DNA from: Pontibacter sp. Tf4
GTDB taxonomy: Bacteria; Bacteroidota; Bacteroidia; Cytophagales; Hymenobacteraceae
NCBI RefSeq assembly: GCF_014212495.1
Contig: NZ_JACKZC010000001.1
Location: 62,001 to 126,000 of the forward strand
Direction of reading: 5' to 3'
Length of the DNA: 64,000 nt
The position numbers and the translations under genes were made by a program. Below are positions 5,106-33,008 of this stretch, piece by piece. The notes beneath the pieces are model-generated. The model had not been told where the DNA came from, searched no databases, and worked only from the letters and a program-made list of their open reading frames with translations. The first letter of the stretch is position 1. Each line of letters begins with the position of its first letter.

Positions 5106-6101
5106 TTGGTAAAGATAGCGAACATAGAACTGGGCGAGTTCCCGCTGCTGCTGGCACCTATGGAAGACGTGAGCGATCCGCCGTTCCGGAAAGTGTGCAA
5201 AGCCAACGGGGCCGACCTGATGTACACTGAATTTATTTCCTCTGAAGGTTTGATACGCGACGCAGCCAAAAGTGTGCAAAAACTGGACATTTTTGACTAC
5301 GAGCGCCCCATTGGAATCCAGATCTTCGGCTCCGATATTGAGTCGATGCGCGAGGCGGCTATAGTCTCTTCACAAGCCGGCCCTGACCTGATAGATATTA
5401 ACTATGGTTGCCCTGTAAAGAACGTGGCCTGCAAAGGTGCGGGTGCTGCCCTGCTGCGCGATGTGCCCAAAATGGTGAAGATGACCGAGGAGATTGTGAA
5501 AGCAACCAACCTTCCGGTTACTGTTAAAACCCGCCTTGGCTGGGACGAAAACACCAAGTACATAGTTGAGACCGCCGAAAGATTACAGGATATTGGCATA
5601 AAAGCCCTGAGCATACATGGCCGCACACGCGTGCAGATGTACAAAGGCGAAGCCGACTGGAGCCTGATTGCCGAAGTAAAGAACAACCCGCGCATGCACA
5701 TCCCGATCTTCGGAAACGGCGATATCGATTCTCCCCAGAAAGCGCTGGAATACCGCAACCGTTATGGCGTAGATGGTATCATGATTGGCCGCGCCAGCAT
5801 TGGCTACCCGTGGATCTTTAATGAGATAAAGCATTACATGGCCACCGGCGAAATGTTAGCAGGCCCGACCCTGGAGGAACGTGTGGAAGTTTGTCGCCAG
5901 CACTTTACGCACTCCCTGGAGTGGAAAGGCGATAAACTGGGCATTTTTGAGATGCGCCGCCACTATACCAATTACTTCCGTGGTCTGCCGCACTTCAAAC
6001 CGCTCCGCATGAAGCTGGTACAGTCCGAAGATATTCAGGAGATTTATGATACGCTTGACGAGATTGCTGCCACGATGAGCTATGCGGAGTTAGAAAGCTG
6101 A
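5106..6101 (+). CDS. dusB: tRNA-dihydrouridine synthase
   Basis: A 331-residue flavoenzyme that reduces uridine to dihydrouridine in tRNA D-loops. The TIM-barrel FMN domain fills the first 240 residues: APMEDVSDPPFR (17-28), the catalytic loop GCPVKNVACKGAG (101-113) with Cys109 as proton donor, and phosphate-binding GNGDI and GIMIGRASIG. A C-terminal helical domain with tRNA-contacting residues (RRHYTNYFRGL) follows. The start is a TTG at 5106, the only in-frame start that keeps the MVKIANIELG N-terminus. The gene is transcribed divergently from the CPBP protease, with only 53 bp between starts. It is followed at once by a strong hairpin terminator, so it is monocistronic. Confidence 0.94.
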   Translation: MVKIANIELGEFPLLLAPMEDVSDPPFRKVCKANGADLMYTEFISSEGLIRDAAKSVQKLDIFDYERPIGIQIFGSDIESMREAAIVSSQAGPDLIDINYGCPVKNVACKGAGAALLRDVPKMVKMTEEIVKATNLPVTVKTRLGWDENTKYIVETAERLQDIGIKALSIHGRTRVQMYKGEADWSLIAEVKNNPRMHIPIFGNGDIDSPQKALEYRNRYGVDGIMIGRASIGYPWIFNEIKHYMATGEMLAGPTLEERVEVCRQHFTHSLEWKGDKLGIFEMRRHYTNYFRGLPHFKPLRMKLVQSEDIQEIYDTLDEIAATMSYAELES

Positions 6102-6148
6102 TTCAGTTAGAAAGTTAGAAAAGTATAAGTTAGAAAGTTATACGATAG

Positions 6149-6179
6149 GCGCCTGTTGCTTTTTGCGGCAGGCGCTTTT
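6149..6179 (+). terminator. Terminator of dusB
   Basis: GCGCCTG pairs with CAGGCGC around an inner TTGC/GCGG stem and is followed by TTTTGTTTTT. It lies 48 bp after the dusB stop. Confidence 0.88.
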
Positions 6180-6184
6180 GTTTT

Positions 6185-6545
6185 TGGACCAGTGATTAAG
6201 GGGATTTTTCTGATTATCAGGATTCCTGTCTGAACTGCGGATTAATGGAGATTTAATGGATTTTGGGATTCGTTATAGTTTGATCTATAGTTCTATAGTT
6301 GCTGCAGCTACATATATTCGCTGGCGCGGGTTTTCAACCCGTGTCTGATTGTAGGGTTGAGTTTGCAACTCAACTGGCCCGAAAGGGACAGGCTTCAGCG
6401 CTGGCTATAGTTCTATAGTTGCCTTTTTAACCCACCCCTACCCCTCCCGAGAGGGGAATTTCAGCCCCTGCTATAGTTTGAGCTACAGTTCTATAGTTGC
6501 TGCTGGTCATCCCCCTACCCCCTTCAAAGGGGGCAATTCTGCTAA
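6185..6545. repeat. Composite intergenic repeat array, copy A
   Basis: The modules, in order, are as follows. First is a GATTAAGGGGATTT-type repeat (about 6188-6270). Next comes a cluster of CTATAGTT motifs around TTGCTGCAGC. A three-hairpin module follows (6321-6405) with CGGGTT/AACCCG, GTTGAGTT/AACTCAAC and CCC-GAAA-GGG. After another CTATAGTT pair comes a C-rich hairpin (about 6430-6460, CCCACCCCTACCCCTCC opening into GAGGGGAATT). The array ends with more CTATAGTT and a second C-rich hairpin around CCCCCTTCAAAGGGGG (about 6507-6532). The same order recurs at 42245-42610. No coding potential was seen. Confidence 0.82.
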
Positions 6546-6561
6546 AATCATAAAAAATAAC

Positions 6562-6683
6562 GCCCTCGCTCGCCTCTGGCGAGTGTGAGCTATTTGGTGG
6601 CGTCTCGCCACCTGCGCCTTAGGCGCAGCTTTAAGCGGCCTGAGTCCGCAGGTAACGCACGCTCGCCAGAGGCCGGCGAGGGC
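6562..6683. other. Cloverleaf-like structured element, 122 bp
   Basis: An outer stem pairs 6562-6587 with 6658-6683: GCCCTCGC with GCGAGGGC, CCTCTGGCGAG with CTCGCCAGAGG, then TGTG with CACG, broken by a small internal loop. Inside are three hairpins: GGTGGCG/CGCCACC at 6596-6612, TGCGCC/GGCGCA at 6613-6627, and GCGG/CCGC at 6635-6649. It is much richer in G+C than its flanks, has no T-tract and no coding potential. It is flanked by partial copies of the C-rich hairpin repeat (CTTCAAAGGGGG left, CTTTGAAGGGGG right). Function unknown. Confidence 0.75.
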
Positions 6684-6819
6684 AAAATAATAGAATGAGA
6701 CAGCCTTGCCTTTGAAGGGGGAAAATTCTGCTGTTGCTATAGTTTACCTCTACTTCTTTAATTCATACTTCCTAAACTCTTACTTCCAAACTTTTTAACT
6801 TTCTAACTATAAATTCCTC

Positions 6820-6858: not shown

Positions 6859-7758
6859 TTGTCTACTATTACTCAACATCAAAAAACCGGAATGCCGGCG
6901 CTTGCCTGGTTCCTGGTCGTTATACTGGCGCTTATCTGGGGCACCTCCTTTATCCTGATCAAAAAGGGACTGGTGGTGTATTCGTCGGATGAGCTGGGGG
7001 CCTGGCGCATAACAATTGCCTTTCTTACCCTGCTGCCATGGGCAATCAAACATATCCGGCAGGCAAAGCCGCGCCACTGGAAGTTTTTACTGGGCAGCGG
7101 CCTGCTGGGCAACCTGATTCCGGCTTTTCTGTTTGCCTATGCCGAAACCCGTCTTGCCAGCGGGCTGGCTGGTGTGCTTAATTCGCTGACAGCTCTTTTC
7201 ACGCTGCTGGTGGGTGCCGTCTTTTTTCACCAGGCCATTACCTGGATGCGGATGCTGGGTATCCTGATCGGTATTGCGGGCACAGCGGTGCTTATCTTTT
7301 CGGGTGGCGAGAATACCAACTTCGACAATACTATGTATGGGCTGTACATTGTAGTGGCTACCATCTGCTACGGCGGCAGCGTAAACATCATCAAGTATAA
7401 ACTGCAGGGTTTGCAGCCGTTTGTCATGTCGAGCCTGGCGCTGCTGACAGTGGGGCCGATGGCATTTGTTTACCTGCTCACCACCGATGCTTTTAACAAA
7501 TTGCAGCATACACCGGGCGCCGGCGAAGCGCTGCTCTACATTGGCATCCTTGCCGTATTCAGCACAGCTGTCGGGTTGGTGCTATTCAATAAGCTTATTC
7601 ATATCTCTACGCCGCTGTTTGCCAGTTCATCCACGTACCTGATACCTATAGTTGCGCTGATGTGGGGCGTGCTGGACGGCGAAACCATTCACCTGTGGCA
7701 TTATGTAGGCATGGTCATTATCCTGGTTGGGGTATTTATCGTGAACCGCGCCAGGTAG
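6859..7758 (+). CDS. EamA/DMT-family transporter
   Basis: A 299-residue inner-membrane protein of the drug/metabolite transporter superfamily with two EamA repeats of five membrane segments each (about residues 15-145 and 160-297). The first repeat begins ALIWGTSFILIKKGL and the second contains SVNIIKYKL. Members export metabolites, often amino acids or their analogues; the substrate cannot be told. The TTG start at 6859 follows a TAnnTTTG box; an ATG at 6892 would remove 11 non-membrane residues and is the alternative. The gene is alone on the plus strand and converges on the first giant T9SS gene, with a shared hairpin terminator. A CTATAGTT inside the gene near 7648 encodes part of Pro-Ile-Val-Ala. 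Confidence 0.9.
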   Translation: MSTITQHQKTGMPALAWFLVVILALIWGTSFILIKKGLVVYSSDELGAWRITIAFLTLLPWAIKHIRQAKPRHWKFLLGSGLLGNLIPAFLFAYAETRLASGLAGVLNSLTALFTLLVGAVFFHQAITWMRMLGILIGIAGTAVLIFSGGENTNFDNTMYGLYIVVATICYGGSVNIIKYKLQGLQPFVMSSLALLTVGPMAFVYLLTTDAFNKLQHTPGAGEALLYIGILAVFSTAVGLVLFNKLIHISTPLFASSSTYLIPIVALMWGVLDGETIHLWHYVGMVIILVGVFIVNRAR

Positions 7759-7831: not shown

Positions 7832-10800
7832 TTATTCTTTGATGAGCTTCAGCGTTTGTTTGTGGTTGCCCAGCGTTACGGTGAGCAGGTACAGGCCGCG
7901 CGGCAGGTTCTGGTTTAGCACCAGCTGCAGCACCGATGCTCCCTGGGCTACCTCCTGCTCCTGTTGCAGCACTGCTTTGCCTGCAGCTGTGTATAAAGCT
8001 ATAGTTGCTTTGCCGCTCTGCTCGGCCTTCACCCCGATCTGCACATCTTTTACAAACGGGTTAGGGTAAGCCATAAACGTGGTAGCGGTTACCTGCCCGA
8101 AATCGATGGCGCGGGGAGCGTATAGTTTTGATGTTCCGTCGTGGTCTGTTTGTTTGATGCGGTAGTGCAGCACGCCAAGTTTGCCATTGCGGTTATCGGT
8201 AAAACTATAGTTCTGGACTATGGCCGAAGTGCCTGTTTTGCTTTCTACAAAGCCAAGTTTCTGGTACGTTTTGCCATCTGCAGACACCTGCACCTCAAAG
8301 CCGGCATTGTTTTTCTCAGAGGCTGTTTTCCATTCCAGTACGGCATTCAGCCCATCCTTCCAGACTCTGAAATAAACCAGTTCCACAGGCAGCGGTATCA
8401 GGCGGCTACCCAAGGTAAAGCGGGCCAGCTTTTGCGCTCCGTTCAGGGTCACTATCTTTCCGGTTACATCCGGTTCGTTAGTAGTGGTCTCCAGTTTCCA
8501 GTTATCGGTGGTGTTGCTCAGGTTGGACGAAGAATAAATGGCCAGGTCGGTTTCTGTTAAGCCATTCAGTTCGTGGCTGTAGTATTGGAGGCTAACTGTC
8601 GCGTTCAGGTTCTGGTTTTCGCCCTGGGGCTCTACTTTATAGTTGCGCAGAATGCTGGTGCCGGATGTGCCCACGGTTGTGCCGGTTACGCGTGTTACTT
8701 TTGTTAAACCGGGTGCGCCGGCCGTAGGCGTAATACTGATGCCCAGCCCGTTAAAGGTCTCTGTGGTGTTTGCGGTAAGAGTACGTTCCGTTTCGATGGT
8801 GCCTTTTAAATAGCCCTGTGTATTGCCTGTTTCGGAGAGGGAACCGGTCGCGCCGTGCAAAATCACTTTATTGGCCGCTCCTGTCAGCAACTCCCCGGCG
8901 GTAAGGGTCAGCGCTTTCTCTACCTCTATAGTTCCGGCCAGGGTTTTAATGCCGGCAGCTGTAACGCTCAGGTTCTTATAGTTCAGGGCAGGTACCGTCT
9001 GGGTTGCGCCATCAAAAATGATCGTATTTTCTGCAGTCGTAAGGTCTGCGGTGGCAGCGCCGGCTAAAGTAAAGGCGCCATTCACAGCACTTATACCCGC
9101 AAAAGCTTTGGTACCGGAACCACTCAGGGTAAGGTTGTTATAGTTGAGCGGCAGCACCTGCTGGTTACCGGCTTTGGTATAGTTGATGGTTGTAGCATTG
9201 GTACGTGCGTCTACCGGCATCGTCCCTGTTCTGGTAAAGGCCTCTGCTATCCGGGTCTCGCCAGTGGCAAAGGTTTTAGCGCCTGTGCTGCTCAGCGTGA
9301 GGTTGTTATAGTTAAGTGCTGCCACCAGCTGCGCTCCGGCCCCGTTGTATTCTATCGTTAAGGGTGTAACTACTGTGGCTTCAGTTCCTTTTACCAGGTT
9401 GCCGGCAACGCGGGCTGTGCCTGCCTCAAATGTTGCTGTTCCTATATTTTGCAGGTGCAGATTCCCATATTGTATGCTTTTCACAAGCTGGTTGCTGCCT
9501 TCGTACACCGCAAAGCTGGCAGGGGCCAAACTATAGTTATCAAAGGTCGGCAATGTACTTGTACCAGCTACGCGCATGGTAGCAGCATCAGCAATTGTCA
9601 GTACCGATGTGCCGGTGGCTTTCTCGGTGAGGGTGCGGTTGGCAGCATTCAGGGTTCCGGTCAGTACATCTATGGTTTGCAACCCCGAAATATCTGCTGA
9701 GAGTGTAACTGCTGTAGCCGGCGCTGCTTTGGTAATACGCAGCTGGTTCATCAGCAAAGTGGATGAAGATGTTACCGTAGCCGCCACTGTGCCCGTAAAG
9801 GTTACCTGGTTTGCCGGTGCACTGAAATTGTTCCCGTTATTGGTCAGGTTACCGTACAAAATCAGATCTTTGGAAGCGCTCAGTCCGCTGCCTGTTGCTA
9901 TGGTCAGGTTATTGATGCTGGTGCCGCCTATACCCGAGCCGTTCAGGTTAGCGGCCGTATTGGTGAACAACAGGTTTGTATTCGGAGCGTTGATAATGCC
10001 GTCGGTTGTCAGGTTTCTGTCTAAGGTAAGTGTTGCGGCTGCATCGTTCAGGGTGGTATTGCCGGCAATGTACATCTGGTTGGCTACGCGGGCATCTGCC
10101 AGTAACGCTCTCGTGCCCGCACCTTGCAGCGTAAGGTTGCCATACGTTACACCGGCTATGCCAGCACTACCGCCTTCGTAAATGGTGTTGCTGTTCAGCG
10201 CCAGTGTATTTGTGCCAAAGCCAGCCGGAAAAACCGCTGTTCCATTTATCTGCAAAGTTGCATTATCGGCCAGCGACAATTGTCCGCCGGCACCGTTGCG
10301 GTTCATGGTATGGCCGTTCAGCACAAGTGTTCCGGCATCTATAGTCAGGTTACCGGTTAACGTAGAACTGCCGGTTGTTGTCAGGGTGTTGGCGGTAGTC
10401 TTTTGCAGGTTATTAAAGCTGGTAGCAGCAACCAGCTGCGCCGAACTGCCTGAAAAAACAACGGTGCTGCTGCCCGGCACAAACGACGTTGTACCTGCCG
10501 TAAGCCAGTTCCCTTTCAAGTCTATAGTTGAGGCATTGCCCTGCAGCGAGCCCGCCAGTATACTTACATGACCAGCTACCTGCAACAGAGGCACCTGCAG
10601 ATTTAAACCACCTGTGTTGGCTATAGTCAGGTTGCCGCTTATGCCTGGCGCTGTTGTGGCCGTATAGTTGGCGGTACCGGCTGTTTTGTTTATAGTTAAG
10701 TGATGATAGGGAACTGCTCCCATTTCCTGCGTGCCTGATCCGTTATAAGTTACTGTGGATGTGCCTGCTGTAAAAGAACCTGCTTCGTAAGTGTAGTTTC

Positions 10801-13273
10801 CACCAATGTTCAGGTTGCCGGATGCCAGGGAGATACTTCCGGTGCCGCGTTGCTCTATGTTACCGGTAACTATAGTTGTACCAGCTCCACTGCCAAACGA
10901 CAGGCTGTTTCCGGTGCTGCCATCATTCAAAATCAGGTTGCCGCCTATAGTTACTTGCTGGGCTCCTGCATTCAGTTGATGTTGCACACCTGCTCCTGAG
11001 CCAGTGGCTACCAGGTTATAGTTTGTGCGCAGCGAGCCCGAAGCTATAGTTAGCTGCATCTGGTTCGCGCCGAAAAACTTAATATCCCTAACCCATTCTG
11101 CTGCACTTATAGTTGGTTGTGTTTGCGGCACCAACCCACCCAGTTCAACAAAATCAGAGCTGATCGGGCCTGTAATCCCACGGGTAGGGGCGCCATCGGT
11201 CCATACCTCCCAGTTCGCTCCATCTGACCATGCTATAGTGTTTGCGCCTCCATCCCATTTGTAAGTGCTCGGGTTATCGGTCAGGGTCCAGAAACCATTT
11301 ATAGTGGCAAGGTTGTTCCGGCGCACCCAGTTTTGTGTCGCATCGTAAGCATGCCTGCTGGCATTAGACCAGGTTCCTGCCCCGGTTGGCGAATAGTATA
11401 GTTTCAGGCCATCTTCTTCACACCCGTTCAGCTCCGCATCTTTATACTGCAACTGCAGGCTGGCACTACTAAAGCTTCCGGATGGCATCTGTATTTCATA
11501 AAGCCTGTTGATCGATTTTCCGTTAACGAAACCTGTTGGCTGAAACCCCGCCGCTCCGGTCCGCATGGTTACCTCATTTATACCAGATGCTCCGGCAAAG
11601 GATAGTGTGGCAAGAGGCCCGTTAAAAGCATAACTGGTGCCGGAGGCAAAGGTGTGTAGCCGGGTTAAGGTCCCAACCACCCATCCGTTTCCTGTTCGGT
11701 TACCGAGTAGCGTTACCTTGTTTGCTCCGGTGTGTAAATCGCCGTTTGTCAGGCTTAAATTGGTGGTTGTAACATTGCTGTTAAGGGCAACATAGTTGAT
11801 GGCAGCAGTCTTGTTTATAGTTAAGCCGCTGAAAGTGGTTTCGCCGGTTATAGTGGTATTGACAGCACCATTAAACGCAACCGTGCTTGAGCCCGGCACG
11901 AAAGCACCGTTGTTAACCCAGTTGCCTGCTACCGTGTGGGTAAGCGACGTTCCGCCATTAAAAGTGGATCCGGCCCCGATTGTTACATGCCCACCTATAG
12001 TTAAGGCATTGCTGGCGGTGTAGGTAGTATTGGCTGTGCTTGTCAGGTTGCCCGCAATGGTCATGGCTTCGGCAGGCATTGTTTTGGCAACGGGGCTGCT
12101 ACCTGTCGTACTAAAAGTTAAATGCCCGTAGGTGTTGTGCTGAACTGTCTGGGCGCCTCCATAATACTCTACGGTGCTGGCCGGGCTAAACGTGCGGGAT
12201 GTAAAGTTTACCGGTGTGTTCGCAGGCCCACCTATTTTAAGGGTGGCTCCAGCTGCAACGGTAAGGCTTCCGCCCGTTGCCTGCCGCACCAGTTGGTGAG
12301 CTCCCAAATCAAGGGTAGCACTGTTTACATTTACCTGTGTATCTGTCGCTCCCGACGAAACAGTGGTAGGCCCGATAAGCCGCTTTACACCAGAACCACT
12401 TATCACGAGTTTTTGATATACTATCTGATCATATATATTCTGATCTATAGTTCCGGCATAGTCTATCGTACTGGTATGTTCTATGGTCGTTCCATTGTAA
12501 GCTATAGTTGGCTTTATAGAATAGTTGTCGAGATAATTCTGAGCTTTTACAAGAATAGTGGCTCCATTCATCAACTGAAAAGCTACTGCGGATTTGTTGC
12601 CCCAGCTGATCTTGTAATTTCCTGGATCTATGACAGCTCCCGGATGCACAATCAGGTTACCATAGTTGTAATCAGTCAGATCAATTGTAACATTGTTTTC
12701 TAAAGTAAGCCTGCCCTTTACATGAAGCTCTAAAAATTGCGTTTCTTTTGAACCGGAGATCTTTTGGTTTGTACCATTAAATTCTACATAATGTATATTT
12801 ATCCAATTCTTATTCTGAGCTACAGGTTTTTCAATATAAGTCCCATTATTAACCCAATCTCCTTTAATAAAAACTGGAGTTCTTAGGTTCTCTAAAGTAC
12901 CATTTGGCAAAATGTTCAGCGTTGTTTCAATGTGCAACCCATTTAAATTTTCGACTCTAAGGTTAGCAGGTTGCTCTCCACCCCCTATTGTTAATGAAAA
13001 ACATTCTGCTCTCTTGTTTTGCCCCTGATTAGTCTGGATAGATTCGGGTTGTTTCTGCCCCCCTGCACCATTAATAATAACATGCGTGTTAGCATCTGGC
13101 ACTGCTGCTGGGCTCCAGTTACCTGGTTCCTCCCACTTAGAGTTTATTTTTCCTGTCCAGGTTGCGGTATTGGTTTGGGCAATGGCAGTGGTGCATAAAA
13201 GAATACAAAAGGCTGCTGACAGCAACCACCCGAAAACAAGAGACCATTTAGATAAGAGTATACTTCTATCCAT
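7832..13273 (-). CDS. Giant T9SS-secreted repeat protein (1813 residues)
   Basis: A very large secreted or surface-anchored protein. A signal peptide occupies residues 1-33 (hydrophobic, ending TAIAQ). A WxG...W...NW domain follows (WTGKINSKWEEPGNWSP) and recurs in mid-protein (WDGGANTIAWSDGANWE). Most of the rest is beta-rich repeats of about 50-80 residues with the recurring core YNNLTLSxxGxKTF and Asn/Gly/Thr-rich strands (GNLTI, GAATLxI), suggesting a parallel beta-helix or adhesin stalk. A conserved segment near 1640-1730 (TASEKNNAGFEVQVS) precedes the T9SS sorting domain (YPNPF start, GxYLLTV, LKLIKE end). It is read from the minus strand. About sixteen CTATAG motifs lie inside, more than in its larger paralog. 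Function is inferred as an adhesin or matrix protein; no enzymatic motif was seen. Confidence 0.85.
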   Translation of the reverse strand: MDRSILLSKWSLVFGWLLSAAFCILLCTTAIAQTNTATWTGKINSKWEEPGNWSPAAVPDANTHVIINGAGGQKQPESIQTNQGQNKRAECFSLTIGGGEQPANLRVENLNGLHIETTLNILPNGTLENLRTPVFIKGDWVNNGTYIEKPVAQNKNWINIHYVEFNGTNQKISGSKETQFLELHVKGRLTLENNVTIDLTDYNYGNLIVHPGAVIDPGNYKISWGNKSAVAFQLMNGATILVKAQNYLDNYSIKPTIAYNGTTIEHTSTIDYAGTIDQNIYDQIVYQKLVISGSGVKRLIGPTTVSSGATDTQVNVNSATLDLGAHQLVRQATGGSLTVAAGATLKIGGPANTPVNFTSRTFSPASTVEYYGGAQTVQHNTYGHLTFSTTGSSPVAKTMPAEAMTIAGNLTSTANTTYTASNALTIGGHVTIGAGSTFNGGTSLTHTVAGNWVNNGAFVPGSSTVAFNGAVNTTITGETTFSGLTINKTAAINYVALNSNVTTTNLSLTNGDLHTGANKVTLLGNRTGNGWVVGTLTRLHTFASGTSYAFNGPLATLSFAGASGINEVTMRTGAAGFQPTGFVNGKSINRLYEIQMPSGSFSSASLQLQYKDAELNGCEEDGLKLYYSPTGAGTWSNASRHAYDATQNWVRRNNLATINGFWTLTDNPSTYKWDGGANTIAWSDGANWEVWTDGAPTRGITGPISSDFVELGGLVPQTQPTISAAEWVRDIKFFGANQMQLTIASGSLRTNYNLVATGSGAGVQHQLNAGAQQVTIGGNLILNDGSTGNSLSFGSGAGTTIVTGNIEQRGTGSISLASGNLNIGGNYTYEAGSFTAGTSTVTYNGSGTQEMGAVPYHHLTINKTAGTANYTATTAPGISGNLTIANTGGLNLQVPLLQVAGHVSILAGSLQGNASTIDLKGNWLTAGTTSFVPGSSTVVFSGSSAQLVAATSFNNLQKTTANTLTTTGSSTLTGNLTIDAGTLVLNGHTMNRNGAGGQLSLADNATLQINGTAVFPAGFGTNTLALNSNTIYEGGSAGIAGVTYGNLTLQGAGTRALLADARVANQMYIAGNTTLNDAAATLTLDRNLTTDGIINAPNTNLLFTNTAANLNGSGIGGTSINNLTIATGSGLSASKDLILYGNLTNNGNNFSAPANQVTFTGTVAATVTSSSTLLMNQLRITKAAPATAVTLSADISGLQTIDVLTGTLNAANRTLTEKATGTSVLTIADAATMRVAGTSTLPTFDNYSLAPASFAVYEGSNQLVKSIQYGNLHLQNIGTATFEAGTARVAGNLVKGTEATVVTPLTIEYNGAGAQLVAALNYNNLTLSSTGAKTFATGETRIAEAFTRTGTMPVDARTNATTINYTKAGNQQVLPLNYNNLTLSGSGTKAFAGISAVNGAFTLAGAATADLTTAENTIIFDGATQTVPALNYKNLSVTAAGIKTLAGTIEVEKALTLTAGELLTGAANKVILHGATGSLSETGNTQGYLKGTIETERTLTANTTETFNGLGISITPTAGAPGLTKVTRVTGTTVGTSGTSILRNYKVEPQGENQNLNATVSLQYYSHELNGLTETDLAIYSSSNLSNTTDNWKLETTTNEPDVTGKIVTLNGAQKLARFTLGSRLIPLPVELVYFRVWKDGLNAVLEWKTASEKNNAGFEVQVSADGKTYQKLGFVESKTGTSAIVQNYSFTDNRNGKLGVLHYRIKQTDHDGTSKLYAPRAIDFGQVTATTFMAYPNPFVKDVQIGVKAEQSGKATIALYTAAGKAVLQQEQEVAQGASVLQLVLNQNLPRGLYLLTVTLGNHKQTLKLIKE

Positions 13274-13716: not shown

Positions 13717-16700
13717 TTATTCTTTCATCAGTTTAAGGGTCTGCACCTGCTGATTCAGTTCTATAACCAGCATATACAGCCCCGGCGCGTAAGTTCCTGA
13801 GCCCAGGTTAAGAGTATGGTCATCTTTACCAGCTTCAACCTGCAGCACTTCTTCCTTCAGTAACTGCCCGGAGACAGTGTATAGTTTAACATGCGCCTTG
13901 CCTGCCGTTGGAGTCTCAATAATGACACGCAGGTTATCGGTAAACGGATTCGGGTATACTATAGCCGGTGCAATTTTAGTTACAGTGCCATAGTCAATTA
14001 CCTTAGGTCCGTATAGTTTAAAAGTACCGTCAAAATCGATCTGTTTGAGGCGGTAATATTGCACTCCATTTTTACCGTGGCGGCTGTCTGTAAAGCTATA
14101 CTCCTGTTTAATAGCCGAAGTACCTACTCTGCTTTCTACAAAGCCTATTTTCTGGAATGTAAGGCCATCGGTAGAAACCTGCACCTCAAAGCCACTGTTG
14201 TTTCTCTCCGAAGCCGTTGCCCACTTCAGCACAGCATTGGTTCCCTGCTTAACCGCAGTAAAGCTCAGCAACTCTACAGGAAGTGGCGTTACATTGCTGC
14301 CTAAAGTCATTCTGGTCAGGCTGTTTATACCTGTGGAAGTCAATGAATTCGTGTAGGTATCAGGAGCAGCTCCCGAGTGTTTCACCCACTGATCTTGCGC
14401 CCCATTTACCCCTTGAACCAAATTATGTAAACGAAGCTCAGCTTCTTCGGCTTGCAAGCCATTCAGTTCGCTATCGAAGTATTTGAAAACGACTGTTGCA
14501 TTCAGGTTTGTGCTGTTTACCTGCTGTGTACTTGTCTGAGAGTAGGTGCTGTTACCTGCAGTTGTGGAGCCTGTAAAGGTAAAGTTTCGGTTTATGCTTT
14601 GATTACCTGTACCACCTGTTATTGCTGCTCCAGCACCTGTGTGCCGTTCCACTGTAATCTCACCTGGCGCTACAGCCGCAGTAATTTCCAAGCCCATGCC
14701 GCCAAATGTTTCGGTGGCAGTGGTCAGCGTGCGGGTTGTTTTAACCTTACCAGAAACAGAATTGCCTTCGCTTTCTATGATCCGGGCAGTCGGGGCTAAT
14801 GTAAATACTTTCCCTGTTGTAGTGATGTTACCTTTCTCAAGCTTCAGTTCCGCGGCTATGTCAGTATCATCAAGCAACGTTTTAACTCCACCTCCTGATA
14901 CCAGCAACTTACTGTATGCAATCCGGCCCGGTATATTCTGTGCGCCCGTACCGTTGAAGTCAACAGTAGCTGTGTTTGTGGTCATGTCAACAGATGCATT
15001 ATTTACTGTAAGAGCATTGGCAACTCCAGTTATGCCGGAGAAGGTTTTTATACCACCGGTACTTAGTGCCAGGTCATAGTAAGCTGTTGGTAAAACATTC
15101 TGATTACCTGTCCCATTATAGTCTACCTTAACTCCTGTGTCATCCGCATCAACAATAACAGTTTCTGCTTTGGTAAGAGCTCCGGCTATACTTAAGGTTC
15201 TATTACCTACTGCTTCAAGCTTTGCACTAAACGTTTTTGTTCCTGCATTGCTTAACACCAGGTTTTTATAGGCAAGCGGTGCTACTGTCTGATCGCCTGC
15301 ACCATTGAATTCTACTGTTTCAGGAGCTACTACTACCTGAGTAGATTCGCCTTTAACAGTTAAGCTTCCTGCTATTTTTGCAATGCTAGCACCTTCTGAG
15401 TTGTTCTCAAAAGTAGCTGTGCCAGTATTCATCAGGGCAAGATTACCATACTGCACACTCTTTACCTGCTGGTTTGCTCCGTAATATTCTACTGTACTGG
15501 CTGGAGCTAGACTAAATACATCAGCAGCAGGTAATGTACTGTTGCCTCCTACTTTTATAGTTGCCCCTGATAGCACAGCAACTGTTGTATTTACTGGAGT
15601 AATGGTAGTAACACCATCTATTGTTTCTGCTAAATCAGGATGTGCTGCTACTTCGTTTGTCTCAAAATCTAATATCCCCGATTCAACTGATACGTTAAGA
15701 AGTTTATCTATATTAGCCTTCAGTGCAACCTTTAGTGTCTGGTCGGCTTTAGATACTCTTATATTCGACAAGCTAAGCGGCACCTTTGGAGTTGCAGCCA
15801 TTCCAGTAGGCGCTGAAATGTCTGATGGACCAGCACCTACAAAACATATTGTTGCGCTACTTGCATTAAAGGAGCTTCCATTATGTGTCAGGTTACTGTA
15901 CAGGTTTACATTGTTATTAACGGTAAGCTTTGAATTTGATGTCGTTACAATGTTACCTAAGCTAGTAATGCCTGTACCATTTATATTAGCGTTTTCATCA
16001 GTAAAAGTAAAAGTTGCCCTTCCTGCGGCCAAAGTTCCATTATTTACCAGATTACCACCTATGTAATAGTTGATTTTCAGCGAATCTCCATTTACTGGAT
16101 TATAAACGAGGTTTGAACCACCCTTAAAGGTAACTCCTGCACCAATTGTTAAATTACCGGTAATGTTCCAGGCACCACCTAATAGTGGCATCAAGGTTTT
16201 ATGTAGTGCCTCTCCTTTTACACCAAAAGCACTTGTGTTCGCTATAGTTAAGTTATTTAGAGTGGTCGGCACCGCTCCCAATAAGGCAACTGGCTCTGTT
16301 CCACCTATTCTCAAAGTGCCTGAGCTTTGGAATGCATCACCGCTAGTACCGAACTTCAAAGGATAATATGGCTTTGTAGGTAACAAATCAACTATTCCCT
16401 GATTTATAGGGCTAAAATCAATCAGGCCGGAGCTTGTGATCGTCCCTTCATTTGATATACCTGTGTATATGGTATGTGTATAACTTCCTCCATGAAACTT
16501 AGCTCCAGAAGTTACAGTTAGCACTCCTCCGACTGTCCAGTTAACGCTTGTGGTTACACCACCCGTATTGCTGATTACTACGTTTCCGAACAATGGTGCG
16601 GCAGTAGAGTTTAATACGGGAGAAACAGTGCCAGCGAATATTACAGTCGGAGGTCCGGCTGCCCCAGGTATAATTGGTGCTAACAACTGAATTGTTTGTG

Positions 16701-19700
16701 GTCCAGTCCCAGCAAAAATTGCTTGACCGCTCGCCTTTAAAATTCCGGTATTTATAAAATCCCCAACTACTTGTACTAATCCTTTAGCAGCATCTAAAGC
16801 ACCCTTAATATCTACTTTACCAGCAATTACCATCACCGGATTAAGTGTTGGGTTTGCAGTACCTTCTAAAGTTTCTAACTTGTATTTCGCTCCGTCCTGA
16901 ACAATCAGGTTATAAAAATTCAATTGATTTGTAGGTGCTGAATTAGTGCCCGCTGTACCTTTCAGGACCTTTTCGGTGCCATCAGAAGAAGCCAAGATAA
17001 GTGTACTTGCACCTCCTTGCTGGGTTGTTCCGTAGTTGATGAAGTTATCGCTAATTGTTAAGGTCTTTCCGTTTGCATTAAATATGGCTGAACTGTTAAT
17101 TATAAGTTCTCCGGTTGCACCAGTTGTTCCTTCTAACTTCTTAGCAAAACCATTGCTGCCGCCGTTAGAAAAAACTAATTTACCATAGTTCAGCGCCCTA
17201 ACATTTTGCTCAACAGTAGAGCCTGAATAAAGCACTGTACTACTACGATCTATTGTACTAGTGGTAAAGTTGGCAGGGAAGTTATCAGCGCCCTTCAGAT
17301 CCAGACTAGCTCCTGCTGCAATAGTTAAGACACCACCAACGGTACTTCTGTTCATGGTAAAAGATTCCAGGTTTAGGATCCCCCGCTCCAAAGTCACATT
17401 ACCATTCACAGCGAGATTACCTGCTACTGAAGCACCGGTTGCTGAAGTATTCTTAAAGACAAGATTGTTGAATGAAGATGCTGTTATAGTTTGAACTACC
17501 GTACCTTCAAATATAACAGTGCCTGTGCCAGGCACAAAGCTACCAATAGTTCTATACCAGTTGCCTTTTAAATTAATATTAGAATTTGTGGCGTTAAGCA
17601 ATCCAGTAGTATTTGTTCCAGAATTCCCGATTACCACATTCCCGTTAATCGTTACAGTACCAGGCGCGTCTAAAGCTGCTTGTAATACTAACGTACCATT
17701 GAATACATTTAAATTACCAGCTATAGTTCTGCTGCCTGTAGTACTGTATTGTGCTGCACCACTGGCTTTCTCTATTGTAAGATTGTAATAGGGCACATTT
17801 GCAACGGTTTGCGCTGCGCCGCCATTATAAATTACAGTACCCATAGCAGTAGTAAACTTACCTGTTCCCAGTGCAGCCTTATTATAGTCTCCACCCACGT
17901 ACAGGTTACCACTGCCAATGTATATGTTCGCCTTATCCTGGTTTATCGAGCCCTTAGCCACAATATTACCTGCTGATTTTTTCAGGTGCACTACCTGATT
18001 ATCACTCTCCAGAATTAAGCTACCATTTATAGTCAGGTCTCGGTTTGCTGTTCTGATTTCATGCTTGGCTGTACCTGCTCCAATAGCTGCTAAGTTACCT
18101 CTTACAAGTAAGCTATAGGCTGGAACAGCAGTTGCAGTTGAATCTATAGATAGCGTCATGCCTGCATTAGGTTTGAACTGCAGACCTTTCACTTTCGCTT
18201 CTGACCGGATAACGGGCTGACGGTTATTAACTGGCGCAACAGAGCCTAATTCAACTATATCAGATGTTCCAGGAGCAGGTTTACTAACAATTAAATCACC
18301 CTTTGCATCATATGCTGACCAGTTAGCCGGAACTTCCCATGCATCACTCACACTACCATTCCATACATACAAGTTAGATTGGTCTGTTAAGGTCCAGAAG
18401 CGGTTCAGGTCAGTAATATTTTTTCTCGCTACTCTATTCTCATCAATATTCCAGTCGTGCTTTAGGCCAGAATCCCAACTCGTAGAACTATTCTCTGAAG
18501 TAGAATTTGCTAGCTTCAGGCCTTCTTCGTCCTCGCGCTCTGTGTTACCATTAAGTTCTGACTCTTCGTACTGTATCTGGAAAATAGCCTTCTTATAAGC
18601 ACCATTTTCCACTTTAACTTTATACAGTCTATTTATTGGCACCCCGCTGGTTACTCCCTGCACAATCTGTGGTACTGAAGTAACCGAGATGCTTGTTATT
18701 TTGCTAGTAATGTTTGATGTTTGAGCATCAATATTCGGGAAGATTATTTTAACAAGCGGGCCATTAAAGCTATAGCCATCCGTTGCAGTAACCGTTATTC
18801 TTTCATCAGCCCGGTTATCTACGATTTCCTGCTGCTGAAATCCCTCAGTCAGTTCCCGTGTTATCGTTCCAATTACCCAGCCGTTACCTATCCGGTCTTG
18901 TAGCACTTTAACTTTGATGGCTGAAGCGCCAAACGGATCCACACCTGATTTTATAGTCGATATAGAGCCTTTAGTTAAGTTGAGCGTGTTAGTCGTTATA
19001 TTAACTTCTGTAGTAACTACACTGGCAACCGTTTTGTCTAAAGTAAGGGTAGCAACAACTATAGCTGCAGCCGTAGTCGGGCCAGAGATTTTTGCATCAG
19101 AAGTTCCAGCAAATATGAGACTGCTGTTTGCGCCTGAATATATTCCGTTGTGTACCCAATCTCCATAAAGCGTATGTATATAGCTTCCTGCAGTAAGAGA
19201 TACTCCACTATCTATAGTTAGTGTACCGAGTGTGGCAATATTTCCGGCCGCTGTTTTCGTCGCTGACACACCAGCTTTCGACAATTCTAAATGATAGTAA
19301 GTAAAGTTATTTACAGTTTGTCCGTCTCCGTTATAAACTACTGTGTTTGGAGCTGTTGCAATAAAATTTCCGGTGAGTCCGGTAAATGCGCCTTTCACAC
19401 TCATCTTAGAGGCTGGCGCCATAGTAAGTGTAGTTCCGTCTGTTATAGTTACATTATTCAATTTATGAATACCACCAAAGGTTGAGTTTCCATTAAAAGT
19501 GACGGTTCCTGCAGTAGCCTCCAGGTTATTACCACTCAGGTTAGACCTGATAAAAAGATTTGTGCCTGTTTCAACGACCGCGTTTGTAGTAGCACGGGCG
19601 ATGTTTAAATTAAAGAACTGCGTGACCCCGGCACCAGCATGAGAAATTGCATACTTAACTGATGGGTTTAAAGTGCCCATCGTCACTGTACCGGCTGTGG

Positions 19701-21489
19701 CAACAAATGATCCCCCGGAACTGGTGGTAAAATTGCCGTTAACCAGAAATGATGCAACCGTACTTGTGTAACCAGCAATTGTAAGGTTATTCAGCGTAAT
19801 TCCGGAACCGCTTATAGTTGCTGGGGTTGTGTTTGTGCCCCCAGCCATTAACAATCCGTTAGTTGCTTGTGTTAGTGTACCTGCGCCTGTGGTAACCAGA
19901 TTACCATTTATAGTTAAGTTTTGTCCGGTAGGTATTGTTATTGTGGTCCCTAAACCTGCAACCTGCAGGTTGTTGAATTCATTTTTGAGTGTTGTACTTA
20001 GCGCAACAGTTGATGTTCTTTCTATTTTTTTGCCGGTACCAGTTAATATGACTGTACTCGTATTTCCTGTAAAATCTGCATCATTAATCCAGTTCCCACC
20101 TATTGTATGCGTAAAGCTGCCACCTCTAAAAGATGCTGTTCCACTCAGGTGCACATCTCCGGCAATATTTATGTTGCTTAAAGCAGTGAAAGAAGCAGAT
20201 CCTGCTCCTTTTAAATTACCTGCTATTACCAGCGTAGTACCTGTAGATGGTACAGGCATTGTCTTTACACCGGTACCTATTAAATGTAAGTTACCGTAAC
20301 CTTTGGCTACCTCGGCCACGTTCTGTGCACCACCATAGTATTCTACTGTGCTTAAAGGCCCTAAGTCTACTGTTTGATAATTTGAAGGAAAGTTTGAAGC
20401 GCTCAACATGAGCTTTGCTAAGTTGGCGACGTTCATTGTTCCACCTAAGGCCGTTCTGTTTAAGGTAAAGGTTTTAATATCCAATGTAGCAGCATCCACA
20501 AATAAGTTCGACATCACGTACGAGTCTGCTAACAAGGTCTTTGTGCCAGTACCGCTAATCCTGAGCACGCCATAGCTATATTGCGCTCCTGAAAGTATAT
20601 CCTGATCTATAGTTCCGGAATAGTTTATTACACCAAGTGCGCTTAACACAGTAGGAAACATATCGACTGTCGCAGTATGATTAGTGTAATTCCCCCTAAA
20701 TGTAGCTGCTTTTACTAATAGAGTACCTCCCTCTGCTACCGTGAATACCGGAGTTAGTCTGCTATCAGCACTTGTTGTAATTCTAACCTGATTCGATTGT
20801 GGGTCAAGAATACCAGATGTACTTATTGTTAACTCTGGTCGGTTGGTAGTAACAATTTGATTGGGATTATTTGTTTTATAAGCATTTACCTGAATGATAT
20901 TCAGGGTTTTTGATAGTGTGATGGCATTAGAAATTGTCAGGCTACCAAAACCACCTCCATTAGGGGCAATGTCTATTATTTTATCTTTACCTAAGAACTC
21001 TGATTCAGGCCAGATCTTGCTTCCGCTTCCTCTACCATTATTTTCTGAGTAGGCACTTTCTCTATATAAGCCCCCAACTGCAACAGTAAAACTTCCATGA
21101 TAGTAGCCTGTAGCTCCCTGGTTCCAAAGAACACCATTAGCACCAATTCTTACATCCCCCGTTATTGTCATAGACCTTGGTGCCATCTTAAACTCAGCAT
21201 CAAAGCTTTCACCTATTGTTAAGGAATTAATAGTATAATCATTCCAATCGTTTATAATCGGATACCTGTTGGCATTTATAAACCTGTCACCTATAACCAC
21301 ATCATCAGCAGGTCCTGGTATACCCATAGGAGCCCAATTACTCCCTGTATTCCAGTCGGTACTTGTGGCGCCTGTCCATGATTTTTTTTCTGCAAAGCTG
21401 TTAAAAGCTACAAACAGAAGTACAACGCATACAGCAGCCGAAAAACGCTTAGCTGACAGCAAGCTGTTAATGAATGTAAAGGTTCTCAT
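13717..21489 (-). CDS. Giant T9SS-secreted repeat protein (2590 residues), paralog of the neighbour
   Basis: The larger of two tandem paralogs. A signal peptide spans about residues 1-33 (ending NSFA). The first WxG...W...NW domain (WTGATSTDWNTGSNWAP) starts near 39 and a second (WNGSVSDAWEVPANWSA) lies near the middle. Between and after are many beta-strand repeats (YNLTI, YKNLVLSNAGTKTF, VDFNGTGAQN). The final 230 residues are closest to the neighbour: PLPVELLSFTAVKQG, TASERNNSGFEVQVS, YSFTDSRHGKNGVQYYRLKQ, then a T9SS sorting domain from YPNPF to LKLMKE. It is probably exported across the outer membrane and attached or released. It holds only about seven CTATAG motifs. Surface adhesion is an inference from architecture. 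Confidence 0.85.
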   Translation of the reverse strand: MRTFTFINSLLSAKRFSAAVCVVLLFVAFNSFAEKKSWTGATSTDWNTGSNWAPMGIPGPADDVVIGDRFINANRYPIINDWNDYTINSLTIGESFDAEFKMAPRSMTITGDVRIGANGVLWNQGATGYYHGSFTVAVGGLYRESAYSENNGRGSGSKIWPESEFLGKDKIIDIAPNGGGFGSLTISNAITLSKTLNIIQVNAYKTNNPNQIVTTNRPELTISTSGILDPQSNQVRITTSADSRLTPVFTVAEGGTLLVKAATFRGNYTNHTATVDMFPTVLSALGVINYSGTIDQDILSGAQYSYGVLRISGTGTKTLLADSYVMSNLFVDAATLDIKTFTLNRTALGGTMNVANLAKLMLSASNFPSNYQTVDLGPLSTVEYYGGAQNVAEVAKGYGNLHLIGTGVKTMPVPSTGTTLVIAGNLKGAGSASFTALSNINIAGDVHLSGTASFRGGSFTHTIGGNWINDADFTGNTSTVILTGTGKKIERTSTVALSTTLKNEFNNLQVAGLGTTITIPTGQNLTINGNLVTTGAGTLTQATNGLLMAGGTNTTPATISGSGITLNNLTIAGYTSTVASFLVNGNFTTSSGGSFVATAGTVTMGTLNPSVKYAISHAGAGVTQFFNLNIARATTNAVVETGTNLFIRSNLSGNNLEATAGTVTFNGNSTFGGIHKLNNVTITDGTTLTMAPASKMSVKGAFTGLTGNFIATAPNTVVYNGDGQTVNNFTYYHLELSKAGVSATKTAAGNIATLGTLTIDSGVSLTAGSYIHTLYGDWVHNGIYSGANSSLIFAGTSDAKISGPTTAAAIVVATLTLDKTVASVVTTEVNITTNTLNLTKGSISTIKSGVDPFGASAIKVKVLQDRIGNGWVIGTITRELTEGFQQQEIVDNRADERITVTATDGYSFNGPLVKIIFPNIDAQTSNITSKITSISVTSVPQIVQGVTSGVPINRLYKVKVENGAYKKAIFQIQYEESELNGNTEREDEEGLKLANSTSENSSTSWDSGLKHDWNIDENRVARKNITDLNRFWTLTDQSNLYVWNGSVSDAWEVPANWSAYDAKGDLIVSKPAPGTSDIVELGSVAPVNNRQPVIRSEAKVKGLQFKPNAGMTLSIDSTATAVPAYSLLVRGNLAAIGAGTAKHEIRTANRDLTINGSLILESDNQVVHLKKSAGNIVAKGSINQDKANIYIGSGNLYVGGDYNKAALGTGKFTTAMGTVIYNGGAAQTVANVPYYNLTIEKASGAAQYSTTGSRTIAGNLNVFNGTLVLQAALDAPGTVTINGNVVIGNSGTNTTGLLNATNSNINLKGNWYRTIGSFVPGTGTVIFEGTVVQTITASSFNNLVFKNTSATGASVAGNLAVNGNVTLERGILNLESFTMNRSTVGGVLTIAAGASLDLKGADNFPANFTTSTIDRSSTVLYSGSTVEQNVRALNYGKLVFSNGGSNGFAKKLEGTTGATGELIINSSAIFNANGKTLTISDNFINYGTTQQGGASTLILASSDGTEKVLKGTAGTNSAPTNQLNFYNLIVQDGAKYKLETLEGTANPTLNPVMVIAGKVDIKGALDAAKGLVQVVGDFINTGILKASGQAIFAGTGPQTIQLLAPIIPGAAGPPTVIFAGTVSPVLNSTAAPLFGNVVISNTGGVTTSVNWTVGGVLTVTSGAKFHGGSYTHTIYTGISNEGTITSSGLIDFSPINQGIVDLLPTKPYYPLKFGTSGDAFQSSGTLRIGGTEPVALLGAVPTTLNNLTIANTSAFGVKGEALHKTLMPLLGGAWNITGNLTIGAGVTFKGGSNLVYNPVNGDSLKINYYIGGNLVNNGTLAAGRATFTFTDENANINGTGITSLGNIVTTSNSKLTVNNNVNLYSNLTHNGSSFNASSATICFVGAGPSDISAPTGMAATPKVPLSLSNIRVSKADQTLKVALKANIDKLLNVSVESGILDFETNEVAAHPDLAETIDGVTTITPVNTTVAVLSGATIKVGGNSTLPAADVFSLAPASTVEYYGANQQVKSVQYGNLALMNTGTATFENNSEGASIAKIAGSLTVKGESTQVVVAPETVEFNGAGDQTVAPLAYKNLVLSNAGTKTFSAKLEAVGNRTLSIAGALTKAETVIVDADDTGVKVDYNGTGNQNVLPTAYYDLALSTGGIKTFSGITGVANALTVNNASVDMTTNTATVDFNGTGAQNIPGRIAYSKLLVSGGGVKTLLDDTDIAAELKLEKGNITTTGKVFTLAPTARIIESEGNSVSGKVKTTRTLTTATETFGGMGLEITAAVAPGEITVERHTGAGAAITGGTGNQSINRNFTFTGSTTAGNSTYSQTSTQQVNSTNLNATVVFKYFDSELNGLQAEEAELRLHNLVQGVNGAQDQWVKHSGAAPDTYTNSLTSTGINSLTRMTLGSNVTPLPVELLSFTAVKQGTNAVLKWATASERNNSGFEVQVSTDGLTFQKIGFVESRVGTSAIKQEYSFTDSRHGKNGVQYYRLKQIDFDGTFKLYGPKVIDYGTVTKIAPAIVYPNPFTDNLRVIIETPTAGKAHVKLYTVSGQLLKEEVLQVEAGKDDHTLNLGSGTYAPGLYMLVIELNQQVQTLKLMKE

Positions 21490-32933: not shown

Positions 32934-33008
32934 GGGGTGTTAGCTCAGCTGGTTCAGAGCACCTGCCTTACAAGCAGGGGGTCACTGGTTCGAATCCAGT
33001 ACGCCCCA
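32934..33008 (+). tRNA. tRNA-Val, anticodon TAC
   Basis: A complete cloverleaf of 75 nt. The acceptor GGGGTGT pairs with ACGCCCC (one G-T pair). The D-arm is AGCTCAGCTGGTTCAGAGC. The anticodon stem CCTGC/GCAGG encloses loop CTTACAA with anticodon TAC, which reads GUA and other valine codons. The T-arm ACTGG TTCGAAT CCAGT is canonical. The discriminator is A; CCA is not fully encoded (ACA follows). A hairpin terminator begins 2 nt later, so the tRNA is transcribed alone. Confidence 0.97.

Follow-up and report, generated by a model that had tools for sequence, protein, structure and literature searches.

The TnpAREP genes of Bacteroidetes subclass 2.6 are flanked, according to the part of Quentin et al. 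2018 (PMC6006769) covered here, by atypical structures that lack GT[AG]G and have copies elsewhere in the genome, and the listing of this subclass as '2.6 (5)' in Table 1 of that paper corresponds to group 5 of Bertels. The part of PMC8266576 consulted describes TnpAREP as binding single-stranded REP hairpins and cleaving at CT, with GTAG contributing to the choice of the cleavage site to an extent that varies from group to group. The way in which RAYTs (REP-associated tyrosine transposases, or TnpAREP) spread REPINs is unproven, and subclass 2.6 of the Bacteroidota is little described in the literature covered. The window, i.e. the whole 64,000-nucleotide stretch of Pontibacter sp. Tf4 DNA that was analysed, contains a 122-bp element that belongs to a dispersed and structured repeat family. 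The family consists of inverted doublets with unlike ends, and its units also bracket a RAYT gene. The window copy is very probably a REPIN-like (BIME-like) non-autonomous repeat in which REP-type units of two kinds, A and inverted B, are arranged around a central hairpin, with a RAYT as the presumed agent of mobilisation. Most likely, it represents a passive repeat that is spread by the RAYT whose gene is bracketed by the same ends. A preliminary description of the locus had considered a REP-like unit or a non-autonomous mobile element, and this reading is supported by the copies, the inverted doublets and the unit-flanked RAYT gene.

The positions of the element, its parts and the adjoining features are compiled in Table 1. 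The minimum-energy fold contains an outer stem of 25 bp that is interrupted by a single 1x1 internal loop (6562-6570 and 6572-6587 paired with 6675-6683 and 6658-6673), and the inverted arms 6562-6592 and 6653-6683 show a complementarity of 84%. The z-score of the 122-bp element was -9.24 for the RNA fold, which was equalled by none of 200 dinucleotide shuffles, and -7.87 (plus strand) and -6.49 (minus strand) for the DNA folds, again with none of 200 shuffles each. The structure and the coordinates initially reported were thus confirmed. Both arms of the window copy deviate from the majority sequence. Two of the three inner hairpins that had been proposed, GGTGGCG/CGCCACC and TGCGCC/GGCGCA, are part of the fold, but the third one, GCGG/CCGC (hairpin B), is outcompeted by a CCTG/CAGG pairing in the plus-strand minima. 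The GCGG/CCGC hairpin is present in the plus-strand DNA centroid and in the minus-strand minimum, and among 51 aligned copies conservation is seen in its four outer pairs; the whole helix is paired in only 81% of the cells because one inner pair is mismatched in 47 of the 51 copies. In agreement with the initial view of the element as non-coding and devoid of a T-tract, no open frame of at least 80 amino acids overlaps positions 6562-6683 and no T-tract follows the element.

Table 1. The 122-bp element, its structural parts and its surroundings in the window
Feature	Position	Strand	Evidence or remark
Whole 122-bp element, from A unit to B unit	6562-6683	+	Aligned as L059:663-784 in alignment A2
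A unit: outer end, hairpin 1, CTAT-bearing linker, hairpin A	6562-6612	+	R1 69.0 bits; R1 training member
Inverted B unit	6634-6683	-	R1 52.5 bits; R1 training member
Hairpin 1 (A unit), CTCGCC-TCT-GGCGAG, rarer apex type	6569-6583	+	
Hairpin A, GGTGGCG-TCT-CGCCACC	6596-6612	+	Fold and copy alignment
Central hairpin, TGCGCC-TTA-GGCGCA	6613-6627	+	Fold; compensatory changes across copies
Hairpin B, GCGGAC-TCA-GGCCGC on the minus strand	6635-6649	-	Minus-strand fold and copy alignment
Left host palindrome CCCCCTTCAAAGGGGG	6518-6533	.	
Left host arm CAATTCTGCTAAAATCATAAAAAATAAC	6534-6561	+	By eye like the element-adjoining arm of L288; X inverted repeat missing
Right host arm X' (AGAATGAGACAGCCTTGC), inverted repeat of second dispersed element	6692-6709	-	
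Right partial palindrome CCTTTGAAGGGGG	6709-6721	.	
Dus gene (dusB)	5106-6101		PF01207
EamA gene	6859-7758		PF00892

Each arm of the element corresponds to the outer part of a two-hairpin unit of about 49 nt, which reads GCCCTCGCTCGCGTCCCGCGAGTGTGAGYTAYn(n) followed by a second hairpin that is either of kind A (GTGGCGTCCCGCCAC) or of kind B (GCGGMCTCTGGCCGC). These units are often paired in inverted orientation and face inward. Among 92 distinct inverted pairs of less than 200 bp, which were collected from the own genome, G030, G065 and the named loci, 85 combine an A with a B unit, one is A/A, none is B/B and six have one unclassed end; pairs wider than 200 bp, for instance L044, L155, L157 (B/B) and the RAYT cassettes, stand outside this count. 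A further 84 distinct units are unpaired by the 200-bp rule (61 B, 17 A and six unclassed) and include the RAYT flanks and wider pairs. The lengths of the pairs fall mostly into two classes of about 120-126 bp, with a compact central hairpin as in the window copy, and of about 141-166 bp, with an A+T-rich middle in those that were read, often containing CTATAGTT. The foot of the unit is located 6 nt from hairpin 1 and reads GTAG in 11 of 56 units, GTAA in 19, ATAG in 16 and differently in the other 10. Since the canonical GT[AG]G foot next to the hairpin is not conserved, the family was not filed as canonical REP. Facing B units were also seen about 400 bp apart at G000:C1:525048-525452 (L165) as well as in G030 (L162) and Pontibacter populi (L192), the latter two being apparently one site with both units kept.

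Further copies were detected by the dozen in the own genome and, in addition, in related genomes. Searching the own genome (G000; 4.45 Mb in 23 contigs) at the DNA level yielded 58 matching pieces. The covariance model R1, which was built from 56 own units with a 57th, unclassed unit (L051:392) being omitted from the unit alignment A1, detected at least 62 matches in this genome at E<=0.01, training units included and with 150 of 977 first-look candidates scored. These copies occupy unrelated places on both strands. In G030, which was outside the training set, R1 yielded 80 matches. With the own genome included in each count, R1 matches were obtained in 33 of the 50 genus genomes at E<=1e-4 and in 28 of 59 genomes of a wider set, representing three of 22 genera, at E<=0.01. 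An exact-pattern scan of the named genomes resulted in 76 stretches that belong to Pontibacter species and to two Rufibacter species.

The own genome encodes four Y1_Tnp genes above the Pfam cut-off and a fifth relative with 34% identity. The RAYT gene at C1:438867-439394, which is present in one full copy, is bracketed by B units located 7 bp after the stop codon and 37 bp before the start. A RAYT of at least 68% identity is encoded in eight of the 50 genus genomes, and R1 units are present on both sides of the gene in all eight, with second hairpins that are B or B-like by eye and with an extra inverted A unit next to them in L077. Within 1.5 kb, five of these eight loci share neighbour genes and three do not; accordingly, the gene at the shared position seems to be fixed and inherited vertically. 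The own RAYT protein scored 104.7 bits with the NCBIfam model REP_Tyr_transpos NF047646 (cut-off 80) and 22.7 bits with the IS200 model (cut-off 55), and three clade members, the Pontibacter lucknowensis homologue in L183 and the three other own Y1_Tnp proteins likewise passed the RAYT model and failed the IS200 model. The protein comprises 176 amino acids with intact NHLH (NHLHLI) and YIHQNP motifs and an SSA tail. Variants of these motifs are YIHLNP in L071 and YIHMNP in L076 and L077, and L074 failed the motif scan in one frame. The W motif reads FWN in the own RAYT and FWQ in L076, L077 and the three other own RAYTs tested. A sequence search of the PDB with the own RAYT gave no match at E<=0.01.

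Among 22 more distant RAYT loci of the genus, ten have an R1 match at E<=1, mostly weak, and seven have matches on both sides. In the eight of these loci that were read out, the unit resembles GTCCTCGCTCGTG...CTAT with a single hairpin, for example GGGGCCTCTGGCCCC, behind it, and hairpin 1 is missing. No R1 match was found at the three other own RAYTs (L021-L023). Other inverted flanking sequences were noticed at L021 and L023, with local scores of 39 and 28 that have no chance control, and none was clear at L022 (15).

The number of unit copies in genomes with a close RAYT gene (median 29, n=8) exceeds that in genomes without it (median 3, n=42) in a one-sided Mann-Whitney test that ignores phylogeny (p=0.0011). 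A strict linkage of copy number to the RAYT gene was nevertheless not found, and the family persists in genomes lacking a close RAYT gene. Many unit matches occur without a RAYT of at least 68% identity in G065 (56), G063 (43), G062 (38) and G005 (31), and G005 as well as G015 (10), G028 (11), G011 (5) and G071 (5) contain unit matches despite having no match to the own RAYT at E<=1e-10. Such copy-rich genomes may reflect a recent loss of the gene, the activity of another RAYT or draft assemblies that are broken at the gene.

The orthologous dusB-EamA gap, the comparison of which had been put forward as a check, lacks the 122-bp element in 29 of 29 relatives examined out of 49 with a match, an EamA hit being within reach in each of the 29. 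Nothing indicates a function of the window copy, which is extragenic, for dusB or the EamA gene. Elsewhere in the window, two very long open frames were observed on the minus strand (7832-13273, 1813 aa, and 13717-21489, 2590 aa) that are alike in their repetitive sequence and C-terminal ends. A base-exact orthologous empty site of a 122-bp copy was not found when two G030 sites were compared with G066 and one own site with five genomes (G030, G066, G060, G065 and G032), the gaps of which are mosaics of repeats. For an own 158-bp copy (L032, the same locus as L009), an all-against-all comparison of the loci revealed an unoccupied look-alike in Pontibacter burrus (L218) with no visible target duplication; the flanks of L218 look like a dispersed repeat, so that its orthology with L032 is unsure. 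In G060, the two genes that neighbour the RAYT cassette are present without it. The left flank of G060 can be aligned as far as GTTGCCT, 4 nt inside the unit, where the alignment breaks off, and the right border is not base-exact, with homology resuming after 18 bp at 65 bp past the outer end of the second unit. In G065 and G066 a larger stretch is missing at this site.

The palindromes that had been described on both sides of the window copy are present, the right one in partial form. The accompanying suggestion that the element was inserted into one copy of the CTTCAAAGGGGG repeat agrees with the window copy, which is nested in a host repeat that has GCAGGGYCGTTTCATTCT as inverted arms (termed X) and that itself lies inside this palindrome and beside CCCCTTNAAGGGG-type palindromes, the left X arm being missing, but it does not hold for the family. 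Left and right flanks are complementary above the 95% level of shuffles in three of four own short copies, three of 13 G030 short copies, two of 15 own long copies and one of eight G030 long copies, in a test that omits L028 (one end lost), L044, L051, L151, L155, L157 and the fragmentary L144. Since most long elements and G030 short copies are devoid of a flanking inverted repeat, nesting characterizes some short copies and not the family, and a general rule of insertion into palindrome tips was rejected on these counts. In the window (6518-6721) and in L277, L280, L284-L292, L295 and L296, inverted arms AGCAGGGYCGTTTCATTCT mark a second dispersed element. This element is often located within CCCCTTNAAGGGG-type palindromes, and its interchangeable cargo is the 122-bp element, a module of the GCTGGCGCGGATCTGCGATCCGTGAC or TTTGTCATCCTGTAAGGATC type, or a 10-nt loop. 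In G030, remnants of the 122-bp element that have collapsed to single hairpins lie beside X arms (L281 and L283), and a high-copy repeat of about 300-400 bp, which dominates the DNA search of relatives, adjoins both elements at L247:1024-1408 and 18816-19245.

The surroundings of the nested copies bear on an alternative in which the 122-bp element is a passenger and a larger palindromic composite of about 190-200 bp, ending in X and its inverted copy, is moved by another transposase with the RAYT units hitch-hiking. In favour of this model, X arms surround or border the 122-bp element in L288, L289, L026 and G030 copies and enclose other cargoes elsewhere or, in L277, a mere 10-nt loop; the short G030 copies have some tens of nucleotides of flanking repeat in common; and the own copy on C18, when compared with G060, contains about 200 bp extra and not 122, i.e. 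the element and host arms inside the palindrome CCCCTCYTGGGAGGGG. The latter two observations imply that the moving unit may at times exceed 122 bp. This model is, however, unlikely. The X pattern with up to two mismatches has six matches in the own genome (reversed control 2) against at least 62 unit matches. Moreover, in 20 of the 23 long pairs tested the complementarity of the flanks does not exceed the 95% level of shuffles, and single units and the RAYT flanks carry the units as well. In other genomes, the X pattern has 26 matches in G030 (reversed control 1), 11 in G065 (3) and 4 in G066 (1).

The preliminary description presented the element as a cloverleaf with a 25-bp base stem, and the pairing in alignment A2 was used to compare this fold with the local hairpins. 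A2 comprises 51 elements of 118-126 bp from the own genome, G030, the named loci and one G065 locus, with both ends classed as A or B. The five local hairpins are paired in 93.1% of the cells; with kinship ignored, ten of their pairs changed on both sides compared with 4.5 in shuffles, and 32 cells did so compared with 8.1, numbers that none of 500 shuffles reached in either case. The central hairpin provides examples of such compensation, reading TGTGCC/GGCACA or TGTACC/GGTACA among the copies and TGCGCC/GGCGCA in the window. In the single-unit alignment, 54 cells changed on both sides compared with 20.6 in shuffles (0/500, kinship ignored), and the number of pairs changed on both sides was not above that of shuffles (4 versus 3.6; 291/500).

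For the long stem, a cruciform or long-hairpin site that is conserved for its 25 bp, for example as a target of a nucleoid protein or gyrase or as a recombination site, would be in line with 94.8% paired cells and with 12 cells changed on both sides compared with 5.0 in shuffles (0/500, kinship ignored). This explanation is highly improbable, as the pairs of the long stem that changed on both sides are within the range of shuffles (4 versus 3.1; 166/500) and as the apex of hairpin 1 behaves differently. In nine copies, one or both arms show a clean flip of the closing pair (G-C to C-G); seven of these copies changed one arm only and thereby kept the local closing pair and broke the long stem at this position; in the other two, including the window copy, both arms are flipped. 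Three of the 51 copies, with a broken closing pair in one arm, were kept apart from these nine. Because related copies can exceed a shuffle control without any structure, the apex comparison weighs more than the counts, and it suggests that the 25-bp stem is a consequence of two inverted units, with the units being what is maintained. Accordingly, the stem of the cloverleaf is real and probably not the conserved feature: the covariation favours short local hairpins, and the cloverleaf as the conserved fold is disfavoured.

A structured RNA without coding function, which the preliminary description had also considered, or an RNA-level regulator such as an attenuator or mRNA stabiliser in the dusB-EamA gap could draw on the very strong fold, on the covariation and on the fact that REPs can secondarily stabilise or terminate mRNA. 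This alternative nevertheless has next to no probability given that no Rfam family matches the element at the gathering threshold (the only match in the window being a tRNA at 32934-33008), that the copies lie at unrelated places on both strands, that the gap is devoid of the element in the 29 relatives examined, that dusB has its own terminator-like hairpin and that a T-tract is missing. A role as terminator was likewise rejected owing to the missing T-tract and the location of the terminator-like site of dusB elsewhere (6147-6177).

The preferred reading, a REPIN-like repeat spread by a RAYT, can be outlined as a sequence of steps modelled on TnpAREP. The local hairpins of a unit would fold when the DNA is single-stranded, and the cognate RAYT, a single-tyrosine HUH nuclease, would bind them and might then nick and rejoin the DNA at the unit ends. 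By this means the element would be copied or moved to new, mainly intergenic sites. The window copy sits within the loop of a different palindromic repeat in the dusB-EamA gap. For the RAYT clade of Pontibacter and relatives, a tentative and somewhat doubtful scenario is that a composite recognition unit arose by addition of a second hairpin inside the outer end and that the ends of the elements subsequently diverged into A and B, an almost obligatory combination comparable to the left and right ends of an IS, with mobilisation by a domesticated single gene that has B/B borders. The family offers a sequence-defined substrate in many copies beside a candidate enzyme. The units of the distant relatives and the A and B ends each differ by one hairpin, so that oligonucleotide cleavage could reveal the recognised hairpin and the need for unlike ends, and the copy-rich genomes without a close RAYT gene allow tests of persistence without the gene.

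A comparison with described systems places the family next to several of them. IS200/IS605 elements and MITEs have the Y1 transposase superfamily and subterminal hairpins in common with the Pontibacter system; unlike IS200/IS605, the own RAYT is below the IS200 cut-off and is encoded by one full gene copy with neighbours common to five of eight genomes. In the BIMEs of E. coli, unlike REP types alternate, and the A/B asymmetry alone may therefore not be new. The REPINs and BIMEs of Pseudomonas and E. coli, as far as they are treated in the parts of PMC3116915 and PMC8266576 covered, are likewise short palindromic inverted doublets with many copies and a unit-flanked RAYT, whereas the Pontibacter unit is without a strict GTAG foot, comprises about 49 nt with two hairpins and has ends that are nearly always unlike. 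The double-foot REPs are explained in the covered part of PMC6006769 by the central deletion of an inverted pair, and collapsed single hairpins such as GCCCTCGCTTGTGTCCCGCGAGCGAGGGC in L283 look like the product of such a deletion, but the single hairpins of Pontibacter look like derived remnants and not like the main form. The closest known systems are provisionally the TnpAREP (TnpAY1) REPtrons of subclass 2.6 with their 'atypical' REPs, as presented in the same part of PMC6006769. Both belong to the Bacteroidota; the RAYTs of the subclass, with about 179 amino acids, NH[LIV]H, YIH[QN]NP and an SS tail, agree with the own protein of 176 amino acids; and in both cases the gene is flanked by units with copies elsewhere in the genome and no GT[AG]G consensus. 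In contrast, the structures of the subclass are called weaker in the covered text, and the Pontibacter units are strong with two hairpins each. The W motif is WQ in the subclass and WN in the own RAYT, which makes the membership, assigned by the RAYT model, motifs and flanks, a provisional one. Neither the two-hairpin A/B unit nor REPINs of Pontibacter were found in the literature searched, which comprised few subscription journals and excluded the motif table of PMC6006769. With respect to the covered parts of these papers, the kind of element is thus already known from the flanking structures of subclass 2.6, and the two-hairpin A/B unit with its unlike ends is apparently new.
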